Below are positions 6,965 through 32,575 of a DNA stretch of 32,575 nt, one piece after another. The DNA comes from a virus. Position 1 is the stretch's first letter; each line of letters opens with the position of its first letter. A model generated the notes under the pieces. That model ran no database searches. It was given only the letters and a program-made list of their open reading frames with translations, and was not told the origin of the DNA. The translations under genes and the position numbers were made by a program. The stretch is from IMG/VR virus record IMGVR_UViG_3300003886_000030, positions 1 through 32,575 of that record. One strand, 5' to 3'.

Positions 6965-9900
6965 TTAATCAGCCCCGTAGGCCGCCGCGCCCACCTTAAT
7001 TCCGGTCTGTATAAGGCTGGAAATTCGGTCGGCTCGATTAGCCTTTATATTAGCGTTATTTGCATAATAATTTTGCAATAGGCTGCCCCTTTGAAGCGCA
7101 GCATTTGAAATTGCAGTGCCCCGCCTGTCAGCTATTCCAATATTTGTCGCTGTCGCCCCGGAATATGCGTTTAACAAATTAGCCGCAGCTCCGGCTTCTG
7201 CCGCCGAATCAGCAGCTAAATAATTAGTGTTAATCGAAGCATTTTCTAATTCATTTTGACCTGACAATCCTCCGGATGCCACTCTAAAGTTTGCCTCTAA
7301 AGATGACCTATCTAAGGCTAAGTTTGAATTTAAGTTCCCCAGCACTCCTTCAAGCTGCGAATCATACCCAGCATTAACAATCTCTCTGCCAGAGTTTATG
7401 CCGCCGACCTCTCGTGCATTGTTTGCGCCAACTCTCGCCAACTCTTCGGCCTGTCTAGACTCATACGCACCAATAAGTCGCGAAGAGTCAGACCGAATTC
7501 TACCAACGTTAAATGCTCTTTCCGAGTTTATGCTTCCGGCCCGATTAGTGGCTCCGCGAAAAATTGCCGCAAGATTAATGGCTTCGCGAGAATTTACATC
7601 CCCAACTTGTCGATATTGAGCGGATTCGCTCGAAGCAAGATTGCTAGCATTTGCCGCGACGATGTCGCCCTCCCGCCTTAATGCTCCGCTTCTCAGTTCC
7701 GCAATATCGGAGGCCATTCCCGCGTTAATTTGACCTGTGTATCTGGAGTTTCCCGCGTCATATTCTGCAATATTAAGATCGGCTTCTCCTCTTGCATTGC
7801 CAATATTTCTCGCGGCGGAGGATTCTATCCTGCCTATTTCTCGAGTAGCTCCGCCTCTTAATCTGGCCAGCTCTGAAAGTCTGTTTGAATCCGCTATCCC
7901 GGAATTTATCTTATTATTTGCCTCATACCCGGCAATTTCTAATGCGGTATCCGCTCTAACGTTTCCAGAATTTATTGCGGCAGTCGATCGGACATCGCCA
8001 ATTTGTCGTGCGGTAACACTTCTATAGCTGGCTATGTCTGATTGCCCTCTCGAATTCGCTAACGCCGACCTTTCCGCGTCTTCTGCATTAAACCCCGCCA
8101 CGGTTATTTCCGTGTCACCCCTAACTCGCCCTGACTCTCTAGCCGCGCCAGAATCAACTTTTCCAATTTGCCGGGCTGTATTTCCCCGCACGTTAGCCAA
8201 ATTTGTTGTTCTGTCCGCGTTGACTTCGCTCGAATATCTTAAGTTCTCAGCTTCAAAACCGGCGACTAAAGATTGCGCGTCCGCTCGTATGTCGCCAACG
8301 TCTCTTGCAGCACCGCCACGAATATTTCCGCGTGAAACTTCAAATCTAGTTAAAGCATCGGCCAAGTTTATTTCGGTGTTCGCTGCATTTGAGTTTGCAT
8401 TTGCCGCAATAGCTGCGTAATTACCGGCAGCGTTAAGGCCGCGACCCGATTGACCCGAGAGCACCTGAGACCGTCTATTTTGATCATTAACGAATCTGTT
8501 TCTAGCGTTATCAAAGTATTGTTGCCCAAAATTAACAGAATACTTGATAATATCTTTTATTACGTTACTGGTGATCCCGAGAGCTGAGCCGCGATTTTCT
8601 ATTGCGCTCTGGCCTTCTTCGAGGCCAAGTTGATAGCCCCCATCTTTCACTAAATCCTCATATCTAAACTCGCGAGTCAAGCTATCAAAGTCGTCCCGTA
8701 ATTTATTGCTAGCCCATTGCCCATTTTTAATCCACGGGGTAAATACCTCTTTAGCTTCTGCCTTTGTTTCGTCAAATCTGGCAATAGCCCTTTTCGCTCC
8801 GCCTCTTTGTATTCCTTCCGCAACGCCTATTGAATTAAGCTGAGACTCCGCCCCTTCGTTAACGCCCTTAATCCTAGACAATGAAGACTCATTGACGCCC
8901 GAGACCTGTCGAGTGGTATATTTACCCGACCCGTCAAGCAAAATATTGGAAGACTCATTGATCCCTGAAATATCGGTTCTTTGCGCTTCTCTTAACGCCT
9001 GCGTAGAAATCCTCCGCCCTGACTCGATTCCTTGCAAGTATCTTGCTTCTGCGTCTCTTGCGCCTTTTGATTTTGTTCTGGCGTACTTTCCATAACCGTC
9101 AATTAAGGTTCGAGTTGATTGGTTTATGCCGTCAACTTTAATCCTCTCAGATGACTTAAGCCCATTAATGGCAAATCTTTTTGACCTGCCGATTCCGTCC
9201 AACCGGCTAAACTCTGCCGCCCTTGCTCCCTTACCCTTCTCGCTTGCGTATTGACCATAACTCCGTATTAACGAATTTGCAGAGAGGTTCACACCGGTTA
9301 GTTCTTCATTTTTAGCCTTGTTAATGGCTTGAGACGCGATGGTTCTCTCATTAGAAATGCCGTCGATATAGCTATCTCTAGCATCTTGCGCCCCACTAAT
9401 CAGCGAAGAATTCGCCTTTCTAGACGCCCCGATAAGAGAAGACGCATAACCCTTTGCGGCTTTTACGTCAATGTCGGTAGCCCTGCTCAGTGCATTTACC
9501 AGCGCATTAGTGGCATCTTTCATGCCCTTTTGGTCTACTCTAGCCGCTCCATTAATCGAGTCACGTAAAAAATTAACTGATTTACTGATCGCCGATAAAT
9601 CAATTGTTTTTGATTTATTAACTGCGCTTAACAGGGCTTTAGCCGAATCGTTGGCAGCCTTAACCTCTCTTCCTGCCGAGTATCTTTCTGATCTCCTTAA
9701 AAAATCCGAAGAAACAATGATCCCCTTCATTTCTTCCGTCTTGGCCGCCCTAGCCGCTTTTAACGCAGATTCCGCCGCCCTGTTACTCCCGGACTTCTGA
9801 AGCCTAATTGATTCTTTTATTGAGCGGCTTAATATTCTTGAGGAATTGTTTAGGCCGCGCTGCTCTGATGTATACGCATTGAATAGCGTGTCCAGCATGG

Positions 9901-10285
9901 TAGACTTGTATTCGGCGTTGGCATTTAATTGCGCATCCCGGATATCAAGATTGTTTTTCTTAATAAACGTTAATAAATCACCGGTTATTTCTTCGGCCTT
10001 GATCCTCCCCTCTTCGACTAGCCTAATCTGCTCGGCTGCCGCAAGATTACTGGCCTCTAAAGCCTTATCTGTAGCTTTTTCTCCTGCATCCAAGGCCTCC
10101 CTCTGGCCTTGTAGCTGGGCGTCTGCTTGGGTTTTTCCTGTCACGGAATTGAATCCTGACTCGATCGCCCTGCCCGTCTTGCTGTTGGTGGCCCCCAGCA
10201 AGTCGCTAACACCAAAAGTCGAAACAGCCGCCGCCTCGTTAGCAACGGACTTTACTCCTCTCCAAGCCTTTTTATGAAAAGCCAT
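6965..10285 (-). CDS. Giant repeat-expanded DNA transfer protein (P22 gp7-position)
   Basis: 1106 aa from the ATG at 10285, chosen because GGGA lies 7 nt upstream and it follows the previous stop by 1 nt; an ATG at 10312 would overlap that gene. The start MAFHKKAWRGVKSVANE resembles phage ejection proteins. A central domain (about 505-640) has the recurring phage pattern FTPWIKNGQWASNKL ... GYQLGLEEGQSAIENR ... NYAAIAANAN. It is flanked by long repeats: residues about 320-485 (units starting GVN/GIN, 55 residues apart) and about 650-975 (units VR.DT....AG...N, also 55 apart). Fifty-five is five 11-residue turns, as in hendecad helices. The C-terminus is ANRADRISSLIQTGIKVGAAAYG. It probably forms or lines an extended ejection structure; that part is inference. 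Confidence 0.72.
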   Translation of the reverse strand: MAFHKKAWRGVKSVANEAAAVSTFGVSDLLGATNSKTGRAIESGFNSVTGKTQADAQLQGQREALDAGEKATDKALEASNLAAAEQIRLVEEGRIKAEEITGDLLTFIKKNNLDIRDAQLNANAEYKSTMLDTLFNAYTSEQRGLNNSSRILSRSIKESIRLQKSGSNRAAESALKAARAAKTEEMKGIIVSSDFLRRSERYSAGREVKAANDSAKALLSAVNKSKTIDLSAISKSVNFLRDSINGAARVDQKGMKDATNALVNALSRATDIDVKAAKGYASSLIGASRKANSSLISGAQDARDSYIDGISNERTIASQAINKAKNEELTGVNLSANSLIRSYGQYASEKGKGARAAEFSRLDGIGRSKRFAINGLKSSERIKVDGINQSTRTLIDGYGKYARTKSKGARDAEARYLQGIESGRRISTQALREAQRTDISGINESSNILLDGSGKYTTRQVSGVNESSLSRIKGVNEGAESQLNSIGVAEGIQRGGAKRAIARFDETKAEAKEVFTPWIKNGQWASNKLRDDFDSLTREFRYEDLVKDGGYQLGLEEGQSAIENRGSALGITSNVIKDIIKYSVNFGQQYFDNARNRFVNDQNRRSQVLSGQSGRGLNAAGNYAAIAANANSNAANTEINLADALTRFEVSRGNIRGGAARDVGDIRADAQSLVAGFEAENLRYSSEVNADRTTNLANVRGNTARQIGKVDSGAARESGRVRGDTEITVAGFNAEDAERSALANSRGQSDIASYRSVTARQIGDVRSTAAINSGNVRADTALEIAGYEANNKINSGIADSNRLSELARLRGGATREIGRIESSAARNIGNARGEADLNIAEYDAGNSRYTGQINAGMASDIAELRSGALRREGDIVAANASNLASSESAQYRQVGDVNSREAINLAAIFRGATNRAGSINSERAFNVGRIRSDSSRLIGAYESRQAEELARVGANNAREVGGINSGREIVNAGYDSQLEGVLGNLNSNLALDRSSLEANFRVASGGLSGQNELENASINTNYLAADSAAEAGAAANLLNAYSGATATNIGIADRRGTAISNAALQRGSLLQNYYANNANIKANRADRISSLIQTGIKVGAAAYGAD
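7361..8335 (-). repeat. 165-bp/55-aa coding repeats, C-terminal block
   Basis: Consecutive units such as RVRGDTEITVAGF... and NVRADTALEIAGYE... are exactly 55 residues long, each made of five 11-residue segments with a hydrophobic V/I/L near fixed positions and motifs AR.IG.V.S.AAR..G. About five to six units can be followed, decaying toward the C-terminus. Units differ in DNA sequence, so the expansion is old or under diversifying drift. Confidence 0.7.
8831..9328 (-). repeat. 165-bp/55-aa coding repeats, N-terminal block
   Basis: Three clear units begin GVNLSANSLIRSYGQYA, GINQSTRTLIDGYGKYA and GINESSNILLDGSGKYT, 55 residues apart, with weaker ones before them. The common core is a Gly-Lys-Tyr near position 14 and KGAR.AE near 22. 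The period equals that of the C-terminal block although the consensus differs. Confidence 0.68.
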
Positions 10286-10286
10286 T

Positions 10287-10673
10287 CTATAATCCCATCC
10301 AATTTGCGCCATCAAAAATAACGGTAACTGCTTTATATTGCCCAGTTATTGGCAGAGTGTTAATTGGCAATGCTAATACTGAACCCGGTGTTAATATCGT
10401 CACATTATTTGCTCCGCTATCTATTTTTCTAATGATGTATTTTTTTGAATACCCAATGTCATTGGGAAGCGTTATCTCAACATCCCCAGACGTACAATCG
10501 CAATAAATAATCGTGTCAGTTTCCAGCGCTAAATAATCAGAGGTTACCTCGGTGAAATATTCGTAATTTCTGTCATGCCGAATAAAAGCATTATAAAAGC
10601 TAAACATCCAATGAAAAAGAAAGGCGGGAGATAATAACGATTCATTAGGGGCTTGAGGCGTCGGCCACCTCAT
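10287..10673 (-). CDS. Virion protein in the gp26 (tail needle) slot, unknown
   Basis: A 128-aa protein between the gp10-like and gp7-like genes, where P22 has the tail needle gp26. It is not a long coiled coil like gp26. An N-terminal region MRWPTPQAPNESLLSPAF is followed by a beta-rich domain from about residue 50, with TSGDVEITLPNDIGYSKKY, IRKIDSGANNVTI and a final VIFDGANWMGL. This compact beta pattern (TLP..., KKIDSSANTVTI-like) is common in phage fibres and tail accessory proteins. Its ATG overlaps the gp10-like stop. It may be a plug or a short receptor-binding piece at the tail tip; the exact role is unknown. Confidence 0.65.
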   Translation of the reverse strand: MRWPTPQAPNESLLSPAFLFHWMFSFYNAFIRHDRNYEYFTEVTSDYLALETDTIIYCDCTSGDVEITLPNDIGYSKKYIIRKIDSGANNVTILTPGSVLALPINTLPITGQYKAVTVIFDGANWMGL

Positions 10674-19376: not shown

Positions 19377-21323
19377 TCACCTCTCCGGCCTAATCCTTAT
19401 AACGCTTTCTTCGTGCCTTATGCGCACCAAATACCCCACCACACCAGATAAGCCAGCAAATATATCGCTAGCGCTAACGCTGTAGGACGAAGATTCTAAA
19501 GTTAAGCTTTGACTTAAATCAAAACCTAGGTCATTTTCTAAAACCGTAAAACCTGAAGACTCTAAAGTTAAAGTTTGACTTAAATTAAAACCCAAATCAT
19601 TTCCCAGAACTGTGAAACCTGAAGATTCTAGGGTAAAAATTGGTCTTAAATCAAAATCTAAATCATTTCCCAGTACCGCGAAACCTGAAGATTCTATGGT
19701 TAAAGCTGGGCTTAAATCAAAATCTAAATCATTGCTCAGAACTGTAAAGTCTGAAGATTCTAGGGCCAAAAATTGATTTGAACTAAAATTTAAATCATTG
19801 CCTAGAACTGTGAAGCCTGAAGATTCCAAAGTTACACTTTGACTTAAATTAAAACCTAAATCACTACCGAGTAGTGTAAAACCCGTAGACTCTAAAGCTA
19901 CACTTTGTCTAACATTAAAACCAAGATCATTACTCAGAACCGAAAAGCCCGAAGATTCTAGGGCTGCGCTTTGGCTAAAATCAAAACCTAAATCATTCCC
20001 AAGAACCTCAAAACCCGAAGATTCTAAAGCTGCGGTTTGGCTGAAATTAAAGCCCAGATCATTGCCCAGAACCGCAAAGCCCGCAGGCTCTAAAGTTACA
20101 CTTTGGCTTAAATCAAAATCTAAATCATTTCCCAGTACCGTAAAACCCGAAGATTCTATGGTTACACTTTGGCTAAAATCAAAACCTAGGTTATTGGTAA
20201 GAACCGTAAAAACCAAAGATTCTAAAGTTTCACTTTGCTCCCCAATGCTTTCAGCAGCCCCTGTTGAGATAAACGCCGATGGATTATTTTGGTTGTTATA
20301 TGATGTAGCTATTTCAGGTGCAGAAAGAACCTCATTATAGATGCTAAATTCTGACACAGCTCCAGCTAAAAAAGCCACAGGGGAAGACCTGACTAATGCT
20401 GATATTGACGAGCTATCAAGGGTTAATGGGGTAGGTGTGTAATTAAAATCAGTGGCGTCTAAGATGCCGTCGATATAAACATTTACTATACCATTGTTAT
20501 CAACCCATGTCAGTAAGTGATCAGTGCCATCAAAAACAGGTAATGTAGATTTAATGCGGTTTGCACTTACGAAAGAATTGTCCCCGCGAATGTAAGCGGA
20601 TAATTCCGGCCCTAATCCGTCAGCCTCAGTGCCTAAAGTAAAAAGCGGGGTATTACTGGAGGATGAACCCTCACCATATAGCCGCAAATTATCTTGGAAA
20701 TTCGGCACATTAACCCACATTTGAATCGAATAACCAGTTGACTTATGCGCCAATGCTGAGTTAATAGTCAAATAATCATTAACGCCATCAAATTCTAAAC
20801 CATTGCCAATTTTTCCAGCAATTAAATCATTGCTTGCCATTCCCCCGTTAGAAGTGTAATGATTTCCAGACCCAGATGAGTCAATCATTTGTGGAGCGCC
20901 GCCAGAAGGGTCTTGCTCTAAATGTAAGCTACAAATTCGATTCGGCCTATAAACATTAAAGCGGCCATATAAATCACCGGCAGCATAAGCACTTAATAGC
21001 GAACTTCCGTACTCAACATAAAACCTAGTATCAACGAGCGATGATAATAACCACCCAGCCCCACTAATCCATATTTGACATTCACCATCGCCTGCCCCTA
21101 AAGCGCTATCAGGGGTAATTGAGACAACTTCGAAAGCAAGCTCATTTGTTTGATCGTCATTTTGATATACACGGGTATTTGCCGCTGTAATTCTTTTAGA
21201 ATTCGTAGGATCAAAAGCGCTATCTGGGAAATTTGCGCGTGACAACAGAACGGGCATATACGTGATATCGGCGACAACCTGTGTCGCTAAAATATCAAGC
21301 GGTAACCTATGCGTATTCGCCAC
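19377..21323 (-). CDS. LamG tail fibre / receptor-binding protein with 22-aa repeats
   Basis: 648 aa from a GTG at 21323, 6 nt after the preceding stop. Residues about 20-125 resemble the DUF2341-type module (FPVLL..., VYQNDD..NELAFEV, WISGAGWLLSS, FYVEYG). Residues about 130-345 form a LamG/concanavalin-type jelly roll (GLEFDGVNDYLTI, YSIQMWVNVP, VNVYIDG, AGAVSEFSIYNEVLSAPEI). Residues 368-609 are eleven tandem 22-residue repeats, then a tail SDIFAGLSGVVGYLVRIR. DUF2341-LamG pairs are typical of carbohydrate-binding phage fibres. No head-binding domain like the P22 tailspike is seen, and the gene lies upstream of terminase, unlike P22. It is probably the host-recognition or decoration protein. 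Confidence 0.75.
   Translation of the reverse strand: MANTHRLPLDILATQVVADITYMPVLLSRANFPDSAFDPTNSKRITAANTRVYQNDDQTNELAFEVVSITPDSALGAGDGECQIWISGAGWLLSSLVDTRFYVEYGSSLLSAYAAGDLYGRFNVYRPNRICSLHLEQDPSGGAPQMIDSSGSGNHYTSNGGMASNDLIAGKIGNGLEFDGVNDYLTINSALAHKSTGYSIQMWVNVPNFQDNLRLYGEGSSSSNTPLFTLGTEADGLGPELSAYIRGDNSFVSANRIKSTLPVFDGTDHLLTWVDNNGIVNVYIDGILDATDFNYTPTPLTLDSSSISALVRSSPVAFLAGAVSEFSIYNEVLSAPEIATSYNNQNNPSAFISTGAAESIGEQSETLESLVFTVLTNNLGFDFSQSVTIESSGFTVLGNDLDFDLSQSVTLEPAGFAVLGNDLGFNFSQTAALESSGFEVLGNDLGFDFSQSAALESSGFSVLSNDLGFNVRQSVALESTGFTLLGSDLGFNLSQSVTLESSGFTVLGNDLNFSSNQFLALESSDFTVLSNDLDFDLSPALTIESSGFAVLGNDLDFDLRPIFTLESSGFTVLGNDLGFNLSQTLTLESSGFTVLENDLGFDLSQSLTLESSSYSVSASDIFAGLSGVVGYLVRIRHEESVIRIRPER
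19497..20222 (-). repeat. Eleven 66-bp tandem repeats in the fibre gene
   Basis: The unit ESSGFTVLGNDLGFDLSQSV plus two residues is repeated eleven times with exact 22-residue spacing and no indels; a decayed twelfth (ESSSYSVSASD) follows. Invariant positions are E1, F5, L8, D11 (except N in the first copy) and F14. Variation is mostly at positions 6, 9, 13 and 15-21. Exact 66-bp spacing allows slippage or unequal recombination without frameshift, so copy number may vary between phages. Confidence 0.9.
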
Positions 21324-28017: not shown

Positions 28018-28449
28018 TTATCGTTTGCCAGCTTCTATAATGGGAATCATTGCCTCAGTTGGTATATAAATGACTTGATTAACGTTTCCCTCCCTCAATG
28101 ACTCGCCCAATGCAGTCATAAACTCTTGCTGCCTATATTCGGGGTAAGCTTTTGCCGCCTGACCCATAATTGAAATAGCATCCGCTTTATTCTGAGCAGA
28201 CTCCTTCTCTGCAAGTGAGGTCTGTATCATTATCTGCTTTGTTTGCACTGCCTTAGCAAGCGCCGCCTCACCATCAAGACCCTGCTTCCACACGTTATAA
28301 ACTGGGCTCATGTGTAGCCCGGAAATTAAAACAAAAATAGCTGCAAATCCAAATGCGACTGACATGGCGGTAATTCTTTCTTTCTCGAAAACATGGAGTG
28401 ATCCTATGCAAATTAATATTACTGAAACGACTAAAATGACTGGCCACAT
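28018..28449 (-). CDS. Membrane protein resembling the C-terminal part of SPFH/HflK-type proteins
   Basis: 143 aa. Two membrane helices (about 2-20 and 30-45) are followed by a part that reads like the tail of SPFH (stomatin/prohibitin/HflK) proteins: YNVWKQGLDGEAALAKAVQT, a helix AEKESAQNKADAISIMGQAA, EYRQQEFMTALGESL and the closing GNVNQVIYIPTEAMIPI. The beta-rich SPFH domain that normally precedes this is missing. GAGG lies 8 nt before the ATG. In lambda, the host HflKC-FtsH complex controls CII stability, so a phage mimic could enter and alter such a ring; this is inference. Confidence 0.68.
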   Translation of the reverse strand: MWPVILVVSVILICIGSLHVFEKERITAMSVAFGFAAIFVLISGLHMSPVYNVWKQGLDGEAALAKAVQTKQIMIQTSLAEKESAQNKADAISIMGQAAKAYPEYRQQEFMTALGESLREGNVNQVIYIPTEAMIPIIEAGKR

Positions 28450-28785
28450 AATTTAAACCTCACAATAAAGCGGCATAAAAAGAAATATACAGCCGAACAA
28501 AATGCCGCGTGATTTTGTTCGCTTCCTTAAAGCTCCTCGCTACGATTTACTGCGTAAACAAAATGGTTGTTACCTTAAAACTCTTCAAAAACTTCATTTT
28601 ATTTTAACAGCGTTGATTTTTTATTAGAGGATAAAGTAATCATCCCATTTTCCTCATTATAAAACGTTTTATTTTTTTGGTGATCTGCTTATTTCTTCTA
28701 ACCATTAGGTGATTTATTCATTAGGCTACATCCATTCGTGGCTTTGTTAAAATTTTTCGTTACTGGCAACCGCTTACCTTTGTCG
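28450..28785. other. 336-bp region without a gene; hairpin and palindrome
   Basis: No frame above about 16 codons has a ribosome site. CGAACAAAAT (28494-28503) and ATTTTGTTCG (28512-28521) form a perfect 10-bp stem with an 8-base loop; on the minus strand UAUAUUUCUUUUU follows, so it may be a leaky terminator ahead of the SPFH-like gene. ATAAAACGTTTTAT (28659-28672) is a perfect 14-bp palindrome overlapping a minus-strand TATAAT (28656-28661), a possible operator and -10. The region near 28766 resembles 27510 (see separate finding). Confidence 0.5.
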
Positions 28786-29378: not shown

Positions 29379-29407
29379 ATGATACAACTACAAGCTGTGC
29401 CCGTCAA
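29379..29407 (-). promoter_or_regulatory. Divergent promoter, minus-strand member
   Basis: TTGACG (29402-29407), 17-bp spacer, TATCAT (29379-29384). Both boxes are identical to those of the plus-strand promoter 36 bp away, and much of the spacer (ACAGCT, TGTATCAT end) matches too. Drives the 168-aa gene. Confidence 0.78.
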
Positions 29408-29442
29408 TTAGCTGATAGCTTTATTTTAAAATTTATATGGGA

Positions 29443-29471
29443 TTGACGTGTACAGCTGCTGGGTGTATCAT
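29443..29471 (+). promoter_or_regulatory. Divergent promoter, plus-strand member, giving a leaderless Cro mRNA
   Basis: TTGACG (29443-29448), 17-bp spacer, TATCAT (29466-29471). The Cro-like ATG begins at 29478, exactly where transcription should start (7 nt past the -10), so the message is predicted to lack a leader. The TACA...TGTA symmetry in the spacer may be the operator. Confidence 0.78.
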
Positions 29472-29477
29472 TGGAAA

Positions 29478-29687
29478 ATGAATCATTTAAAAAAAGCAGC
29501 ACAAATCACGTCTTTGGCCGAGATTGGCAAAGCATGCGGAGTCACGTATCAAGCAGTACAAAAGTGGATTAAAAATGGAAAATTGCCAAGGACTGAATGG
29601 ACTGGCGAAACCAAATACGCGAAAATAATCGAGCGGTTGACTAATAAGCAAGTAACCGCAAAACAGTTAACAACTAAAAACACTTAA
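29478..29687 (+). CDS. Cro-like (YdaS-type) HTH repressor
   Basis: 69 aa from the ATG at 29478. The helix-turn-helix is clear at about residues 12-31 (SLAEIGKACGVTYQAVQKWI), followed by NGKLPRTEW, as in Cro/YdaS-like proteins that open with a LKKA..I helix. A longer reading from 29448 would start inside the promoter and is rejected. No Shine-Dalgarno fits; the predicted transcript start coincides with the ATG, as in leaderless lambda cI mRNA. It is first in the plus-strand operon that ends with the Tad2-like gene and probably binds the matched elements in the two divergent promoters. Confidence 0.82.
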   Translation: MNHLKKAAQITSLAEIGKACGVTYQAVQKWIKNGKLPRTEWTGETKYAKIIERLTNKQVTAKQLTTKNT

Positions 29688-30286: not shown

Positions 30287-30452
30287 AGAAAAGTTAATCC
30301 GCAGGTTTGAAAAATGGCCGCGAGAATATGCATGCGACATTATCGCGCTCAAAGATCGAGAGCAGATGATTGAGGCCATGAAGCTTGTGCCCGATCACTT
30401 TAAACAAATGGCCGGGCGACATGTTAATTCTATGTTGCGCAAACTTAAATAA
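30273..30452 (+). CDS. Small conserved-looking phage protein with apparent ATC start
   Basis: 59 aa. The body RRFEKWPREYACDIIALKDR, EQMIEAMKLVPDHF and KQMAGRHVNSMLRKLK has the layout of small phage proteins with ...I...R.EM...VP.H....V..HV..... at the end. In this frame a stop lies at 30246, and no ATG, GTG or TTG occurs until 30366, inside the protein. GGAG (30262-30265) stands exactly 7 nt before ATC at 30273, so ATC may be the start; otherwise the ribosome would have to shift from the overlapping membrane-protein frame. It is 13 bp ahead of the Tad2-like gene. A sequencing error is the third option. Confidence 0.6.
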   Translation: MKKNKEKLIRRFEKWPREYACDIIALKDREQMIEAMKLVPDHFKQMAGRHVNSMLRKLK

Positions 30453-30465
30453 AATGGAGATAAAA

Positions 30466-30951
30466 ATGAGCGGTAAAGTAAAGGGAAACCAATTTAACCT
30501 ATTAGATAATACAGAGCTATATATTGGCACTAAAACTTCTATGGCAAAAGAGATGAATAGAGCTGATTATAACAGGTTTCGTGGCTGGAGCTTACCGGAC
30601 AATGAAGACGGTAATGATAATGGGTATATCGTACAATATGCTAATGGTTATGTGTCGTGGAGTCCAGCAGATCAGTTTAATGAGGCGTACAAAAAGACTA
30701 GTGGGTTAAGTTTTGGCTTAGCCATAGACGCGATGAAAAAAGGAAAAGCAGCAAGGCGATTAGGGTGGAACGGAATAGGAATTTTTATCGGCATCCAATA
30801 TCCGTCAAATCTTAGCAAGATGACATCCCCGTATCTATTTATCGACACTACGGGGCTTAAGACGTCAAATGAAGACGCCCCAAAAAGCTTAGTTCCATGG
30901 CTAGCGTCTCAAACCGACATGCTGTCAACTGACTGGGTAATACTGGACTAA
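30466..30951 (+). CDS. tad2: Tad2-like (DUF2829) anti-Thoeris protein
   Basis: 161 aa from the ATG at 30466 (GGAG 6 nt upstream). Residues 80-161 are the DUF2829 domain: LSFGLAIDAMKKGKAARRLGWNG, PYLFIDTTG and VPWLASQTDMLSTDWVIL. An extra N-terminal domain (1-75; IGTKTSMAKEMNRADYNRF, RGWSLP, YANGYVSWSP) is one I recall from longer phage DUF2829 proteins. Tad2 proteins are known to bind and sequester the signal nucleotide made by Thoeris, so that the effector is not triggered. The gene is last in the Cro-led operon and ends at a terminator. The symbol is by domain only; ligand binding is untested. Confidence 0.82.
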   Translation: MSGKVKGNQFNLLDNTELYIGTKTSMAKEMNRADYNRFRGWSLPDNEDGNDNGYIVQYANGYVSWSPADQFNEAYKKTSGLSFGLAIDAMKKGKAARRLGWNGIGIFIGIQYPSNLSKMTSPYLFIDTTGLKTSNEDAPKSLVPWLASQTDMLSTDWVILD

Positions 30952-32122: not shown

Positions 32123-32575
32123 TTTTCAACTTCCCCGTTTATATAATTTCCATCAAAATCATCACGCGCCCAGTCAGGGATTTCGCTGTTATCAATTCCG
32201 GTGGATTTTGTTGATTTATCCGACTCACTCATCCATTCGCATTTAAAGCCCCGCCACCCGCTCGACTCGGCCTTGGCAATGCAAACGGACACGGTAAAGC
32301 CTAAGTCTACGGCTAGGTGCAATTCCTTCCCCGTGGTGTCAATTGCTGACTGACTTATCGACCCCTTGTTACGCTTTTTCATGATTAACCAATCTTTTAG
32401 CAGTTTTTCGTCTGGCTTTTCAGGCCAAGAATCAAAATTTAGTTTTTTAATATTTTTAGGCTTGATCTTTTTTGTCTCTGTCTCTGTCTCTGTCTCTGTC
32501 TCTGTCTCTGTCTCTGTCTCTGTCTCTGTCTCTGTCTCTGTCTCTGTCTCTAGAGGATCACATTGATATCGACCT
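32119..32575 (-). CDS. O-like replication initiator, C-terminal part
   Basis: Continuation of the gene that starts at 399; 32485-32575 repeats the left end. After the Glu-Thr linker the sequence KKIKPKNIKKLNFDSWPEKP, LLKDWLIMKKRNKGSISQSA, LAVDLGFTVSVCIAKAESS and GWRGFKCEWM is the typical C-terminal domain of phage O-like and DnaT-like replication proteins (W...P...L.DW...RK..K...S...I), expected to contact the helicase loader. It ends 3 nt into the P-like gene. The in-frame join was checked by codon phase across the junction. Confidence 0.85.
   Translation of the reverse strand, partial: GRYQCDPLETETETETETETETETETETETETETKKIKPKNIKKLNFDSWPEKPDEKLLKDWLIMKKRNKGSISQSAIDTTGKELHLAVDLGFTVSVCIAKAESSGWRGFKCEWMSESDKSTKSTGIDNSEIPDWARDDFDGNYINGEVEK
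32473..32550. repeat. (TGTCTC)13 microsatellite
   Basis: Thirteen perfect 6-bp units in the circular map (eleven of them repeated at 1-66). On the coding minus strand the unit is GAGACA, giving Glu-Thr 13 times in the initiator. The 6-bp period preserves the frame whenever units are gained or lost. No interruption is present, which suggests recent slippage or selection for uniformity. Confidence 0.95.

Follow-up and report, generated by a model that had tools for sequence, protein, structure and literature searches.

A Membrane-Anchored SPFH C-Terminal Module without the SPFH Domain in Phages and Some Bacteria: a Candidate Self-Assembling Membrane Scaffold

The viral contig analyzed here in full (32,575 nucleotides, IMG/VR record IMGVR_UViG_3300003886_000030; referred to as the window) carries on its minus strand an open reading frame (ORF) with an ATG start, 28018-28449, that encodes 143 amino acids: two hydrophobic segments, then a long Ala/Glu-rich helix, and then the tail NVNQVIYIPTEAMIPIIEAGKR. 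The preliminary description of this locus regarded the product as two membrane helices followed by the C-terminal helix and closing strand of an SPFH-type protein, and the ORF, the tail, and the helices modeled by AlphaFold2 all agree with that reading. The question raised by this locus is what kind of protein has the end of an SPFH protein and no SPFH domain, and what such a protein might do at a membrane.

The positions of the features are collected in Table 1. After the long helix come a bend, an 18-residue helix, a strand-like VIYIPTE, and the tail, GNVNQVIYIPTEAMIPIIEAGKR. AlphaFold2, supplied with a 66-sequence alignment of the window protein and related loci, placed helices at residues 2 to 14, 22 to 100, and 102 to 119 (numbering without Met1), with a mean pLDDT of 85.6 and a pTM of 0.49, and left the tail unstructured. 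Foldseek searches with this model against the PDB (including a second look) and against viral models returned nothing informative; with a model that consists of one bent helix, there is no structural match either way.

Table 1. Sequence features of the SPFH-tail gene and of the nearby promoter-like region, in window coordinates
Feature	Position	Strand	Basis
CDS, SPFH C-terminal module plus membrane anchor, phrog_11227 family	28018..28449	-	ORF and start; phrog_11227 match, E 1.7e-30; tblastn, 60 phage records
Shine-Dalgarno-like GAGG, 8 nt upstream of the ATG	28458..28461 (complement)	-	Direct sequence reading
First hydrophobic helix, residues ~2-21	28387..28446	-	Sequence; AlphaFold2 helix 2-14; in a minority of the family only
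Second hydrophobic helix, residues ~28-46; runs into the coil in the model	28312..28368	-	Sequence; AlphaFold2 helix 22-100; position of the family TM segment/lipobox
P-x-Y-x-V-[WY] motif right after the membrane segment, residues 49-54	28288..28305	-	Family conservation: P 89%, Y 92%, V 93%
CC1-type hendecad helix, residues ~55-101	28147..28287	-	Coil lengths 45/56/67/78; lag-11 autocorrelation; SPFH matches
CC2-type short helix past the bend, residues ~103-120	28090..28143	-	AlphaFold2 helix 102-119; CC1-CC2-strand order in prohibitin/erlin cages (PMC12624060)
Closing strand and tail, NQVIYIPTEAMIPIIEAGKR; most conserved part	28021..28080	-	Y, P, T, E, P, and E each >=95% in 187 sequences; QmcA/halovirus alignment
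Two divergent promoter-like sites (TTGACG-17-TATCAT), one per arm of a 30-nt inverted repeat	29379..29471		Sequence

Searched alone against Pfam and the PDB, the window protein gave chance matches only, and a family profile was needed. An hmmsearch with a profile of 20 sequences against 177,635 PDB sequences (E values up to 10) matched eight chains, all of them SPFH proteins and always at the C-terminal coil and tail, with E values of 1.1e-4 for Escherichia coli QmcA and 8.1e-4 for the best prohibitin. A larger profile of 66 sequences also placed prohibitins and QmcA on top, with pilin and other matches weaker. By hhalign, the family matched the full-length SPFH protein (gp80) of halovirus HRTV-17 (E = 1.3e-12), QmcA (E = 1.5e-5), and, weakly, HflC (E = 3.5e-4; 12.5 bits). 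These three sequences each scored above all 300 local shuffles, and the reversed family profile failed to find any of them. HflK gave no hhalign match, and its real sequence did not score above its local shuffles. The match named at the outset is thus inexact in its details: the piece is like the tails of QmcA, prohibitins, and halovirus SPFH proteins, only weakly like HflC, and unlike HflK.

The QmcA alignment runs past CC2 into the closing strand, which aligns with VVMMPLEA in QmcA and with TIYLPSDE in the halovirus protein. Furthermore, plain tblastn with a phage relative from a spring metagenome retrieves halovirus SPFH proteins, and a profile scan of 147 genomes from the order of a Novosphingobium yielded short members and, apart from these, just two long frames, which have QmcA-like tails. 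In the human erlin and prohibitin cages, CC1 bends by 55 to 80 degrees into CC2, followed by a ring of parallel strands and then the tail; the narrow end is four-layered, and prohibitin assembly depends most on the CC2 contacts (PMC12624060). The parts of the phage protein follow this order. The coiled-coil wall, bend, closing strand, and tail of SPFH C termini are present in the family, and the SPFH/Band 7 domain (PF01145) is absent. At the level of sequence, these comparisons show homology to SPFH C termini and the anatomy of a narrow-end module on a membrane anchor, as had been proposed.

Likeness among Ala/Glu-rich coils could also arise by convergence, in which case the protein would be a generic periplasmic coiled-coil scaffold of a spanin-like, pilin-like, or lipoprotein-spacer type. 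The coil is Ala/Glu-rich, and some members give weak matches to models of spanins, pilins, or ATP synthase b. However, SPFH proteins score better than any other coiled coil in the PDB, the QmcA match reaches the closing strand, the shuffle and reversal controls were passed, and the gene is often near replication rather than lysis genes, so that we consider convergence quite unlikely. A spanin role in particular was set aside, as the match was weak and confined to one member and replication-gene neighbors are more frequent.

No Band_7 was found by the domain-library scan in the window protein or in 20 family members, while the same library detected it at 9.7e-34 in a full-length relative from halovirus HRTV-17; the absence claimed in the preliminary description thus stands. 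Of the 187 distinct sequences examined, none but the halovirus control (L022) is an SPFH protein of full length. Longer open frames occur in some high-GC genomes, and the two that were checked (L166 and L155) contain no Band_7. Because relatives across phages are equally short, this architecture is an established one and does not come from gene damage; a split or frameshifted SPFH gene was rejected on the same grounds.

The window protein matches phrog_11227 over residues 31 to 143 (E = 1.7e-30), and this profile is matched by all 20 family members scanned. The phage records found by tblastn match the window protein at less than 60% identity and include, by host or name, Acinetobacter, Shewanella, Salmonella (SPN1S), Klebsiella and Erwinia jumbo phages, Synechococcus, Caulobacter, Agrobacterium, Vibrio, and others; the family occurs in phages of Gamma- and Alphaproteobacteria, cyanobacteria, and Bacteroidota. 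A scan of viral contigs with the single window protein found no relatives, and sub-alignments used as queries recovered 48 and 489 in viral contigs (about 500) and 94 in bacterial or archaeal genomes. The phrog_11227 family is widespread in phages and is present in some bacteria, and its tail is nearly invariant, in the 187 sequences, across phages of very different hosts. In Salmonella phage SPN1S (L005; NC_016761), the gene SPN1S_0003 is annotated as 64 amino acids, but its frame is open for 125, with an ATG farther upstream; where the unannotated part of this frame begins, it is overlapped by SPN1S_0004, an ORF on the other strand.

Pfam and NCBIfam scans of 20 members revealed no protease domain or catalytic family, the sole protease-type matches being weak ones to the hflC “protease modulator” in 2 of the 20. 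Judged by sequence, the names “protease” (phrog_11227) and “membrane protease subunit” (NCBI) are misleading, and they were apparently transferred from SPFH/HflC names. The literature searched contains no functional study or experiment on any family member, and SPFH proteins receive only passing mention in phage papers (PMC8540360, PMC13239085, PMC4936722, and PMC1524935).

The length of the coil, measured from a conserved Gly to the Tyr at the start of CC2, is 45, 56, 67, or 78 residues in 179 of 182 sequences, and the three exceptions have 49, 54, and 55. Steps of 11 residues are expected if the hendecad wall of SPFH proteins stays in register. The hydrophobicity autocorrelation of the coil peaks at lag 11, and QmcA also shows a hendecad repeat; the strongest single period in a Fourier analysis of the coil, 2.66, is left uninterpreted. 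From the tree, the length classes would represent at least three events rather than 179 independent ones. The window protein is of the 45-residue type, one 11-residue unit below most of the family, and this type forms a clade (support, 0.993) with two exceptions.

The anchor is more variable. Most members have one hydrophobic segment and 12, the window protein included, have two, so the two-helix N terminus is a minority form beside a majority with one transmembrane (TM) helix or a lipoprotein-like signal. In several dozen members a lipobox-like motif stands where the segment ends or close to that point, and two of them (L131 and L154) have textbook lipoprotein signals; the window protein has no lipobox. 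The loop between the helices of the two-TM forms mostly bears Lys or Arg. Together, the interchangeable anchor (one TM, two TMs, or lipoprotein type) and the Lys/Arg-bearing loops suggest that the coil is exported and lies on the periplasmic side. A positive-inside count over the whole set gave means of 1.72 and 1.54 Lys/Arg, which decides neither side.

In the window, the gene belongs to a leftward cluster that includes a RecE-like exonuclease. The inverted repeat and its promoter-like sites may form a lambda-type early control region in which the leftward arm drives the operon containing the window gene, but this is suggestive only, because promoter matches of this kind are no commoner than chance. 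A repressor-like gene (phrog_35) adjoins the inverted repeat (29379-29480), and its mRNA may be leaderless, since the likely ATG (29478) is only 7 nt past the -10 element. In other phages the gene often has early or replication genes around it (e.g., for primase, SSB, thymidylate synthase, a sigma factor, or NinB), and many of its neighbors are replication or recombination genes. The window also encodes a Tad2-like (Thoeris anti-defence 2) protein about 2 kb from the gene (30385-30951, plus strand; PF11195, E = 3.4e-18). Two long proteins (6965-10315 and 19377-21323, both on the minus strand) contain many internal repeats of the ARxIGDVRS and ESSGFTVLGNDLGFDLSQS types, and at its end the contig has a simple repeat, translated as VSVSVSVS (32366-32566, plus strand), that is possibly low-complexity sequence or an assembly edge.

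The reading that we favor, with a probability of about 0.5, takes the protein for an SPFH narrow-end module, anchored in the membrane, that self-assembles into a mini-dome and thereby corrals or shields membrane proteins. The module (CC1 wall helix, bend, CC2, closing beta-strand, and tail) would correspond to the upper wall and roof of a prohibitin-type cage without the SPFH1/SPFH2 base. By analogy with SPFH cages of 22 to 26 subunits, about 20 or more copies would pack side by side via their hendecad helices, and the tail strands would seal a small dome or ring that stands on the inner membrane itself, most likely at the periplasmic face. The mini-dome, presumably made early in infection, would act not as an enzyme but as an enclosure, for example by shifting the access of FtsH-type proteases to host or phage membrane proteins. 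A homo-oligomer is favored because the tail is nearly invariant across unrelated hosts while the host SPFH tails that were compared differ, because wall height changes by whole repeats, and because the module retains the subunit-packing parts. Counting against a dome are the monomer model, a bent helix whose tail is disordered, the uninformative Foldseek searches, and the undecided topology count; counting against early expression is its dependence on gene order and on the promoter-like sites described above.

Alternatively, the protein could join an assembly of host SPFH proteins (HflKC, prohibitin-like, or QmcA-like), in the role of a cap or a shortened subunit, so that the cage is opened or poisoned and FtsH proteolysis or membrane-based defence is altered. 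The preliminary description had suggested such insertion into, or capping of, host HflKC cages. The same retained packing parts would serve this purpose, the Tad2-like anti-defence gene is 2 kb away, and the possible early leftward operon recalls the position of lambda cIII, which encodes an inhibitor of FtsH. HflKC/FtsH is an established phage-host control point (PMC1838920). However, the tail is conserved across unrelated hosts while the SPFH tails of hosts differ, HflK is unmatched, and a fixed host partner would not easily tolerate coil-length changes of whole 11-residue units. Copies in ordinary bacterial operons also speak against co-assembly, which we regard as unlikely.

These chromosomal copies occupy fixed bacterial gene orders, which argues against a purely anti-host weapon. 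In 23 Sphingomonadales loci the gene lies between nrdA and nrdB (nrdA-X-nrdB; among L192 to L234, e.g., L213, 3950-4519), and these copies form one monophyletic clade (support, 0.999); in a few loci one flank is cut off or undetected. In eight Selenomonadaceae-type loci it lies between mlaF and mlaD (mlaE-mlaF-X-mlaD; among L174 to L189, e.g., L189, 3857-4360), in some with an extra small nucleotidyltransferase-like ORF. Strong matches are patchy, occurring in 7 of 147 and 4 of 81 genomes sampled (~5%). One Selenomonadaceae-type genome (G002; contig C74, 13235-13475; L253 and L254) has a second copy in two pieces, which is probably decayed. We also found a member with a coil two repeats longer on an IncC conjugative plasmid (L024, 2489-2962), where it adjoins an RHS protein and a barstar-family gene.

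Both gene orders would fit a membrane-linked accessory to nucleotide supply or lipid transport, rather than to proteolysis, given neighbors for ribonucleotide reductase, thymidylate synthase, and Mla. In phages, thyA adjoins the gene in Erwinia phage EaH1 and is nearby in Shewanella phage Y11, and a putative ribonucleotide-reductase-like ORF, read from its translation, lies upstream in the L027 region. However, the partners vary by lineage and the chromosomal copies are patchy, the pattern to be expected if a mobile gene was captured a few times, and an accessory role of this kind seems very unlikely. For the self-assembling module, we tentatively propose a broader picture: a stand-alone SPFH roof, found in phages, some chromosomes, and a few plasmids, that may assemble into a small membrane dome without the SPFH domain and that bacterial operons may have captured on at least two occasions (nrdA-X-nrdB and mlaF-X-mlaD).

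If this is true, the CC1-CC2-strand module is by itself enough to make an assembling membrane scaffold. What defines SPFH cages is the SPFH domains, located at the membrane, and a natural, abundant family that has only the roof would test the role of each half and offer a model of cage closure of about 130 residues. The finding would also correct the protease-derived annotation in many phage genomes, and the family is a concrete candidate for phage reworking of host membrane proteostasis.

Among known systems, full-length phage SPFH proteins, whose genes have been reported from T4-like phages since 2006 (PMC1524935), carry the Band 7 domain, whereas the family of the window protein does not. 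phrog_200 (“lipoprotein”), a secondary match in 16 of 20 members, appears from its name and from the annotation of the matched haloviruses to hold such full-length forms; the window protein's own family, phrog_11227 or “membrane protease subunit” at NCBI, has no protease domain in Pfam or NCBIfam. The FtsH inhibitor CIII of lambda is likewise a small, membrane-associated, helical phage protein, with no sequence relation to the family expected and an operon position that is possibly similar. The coil of E. coli HflC is weakly similar to that of the family and HflK has no significant similarity; unlike the family, the two proteins contain SPFH domains, and their tails are different. E. coli QmcA (stomatin-like; PDB 8z5g) aligns with the family through its coil and tail but has SPFH domains and a longer C terminus, and it is predicted to face the cytoplasm (PMC10434171). 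Prohibitin/SPFH4-type and halovirus SPFH proteins are about 255 to 355 amino acids long, whereas family members, which lack SPFH1 and SPFH2, typically have 120 to 170. Prohibitin/SPFH4-type proteins and HRTV-17 gp80, which has Band_7, share with the family the CC1-CC2-strand-tail order, the hendecad coil, and the IY-x-P closing motif.
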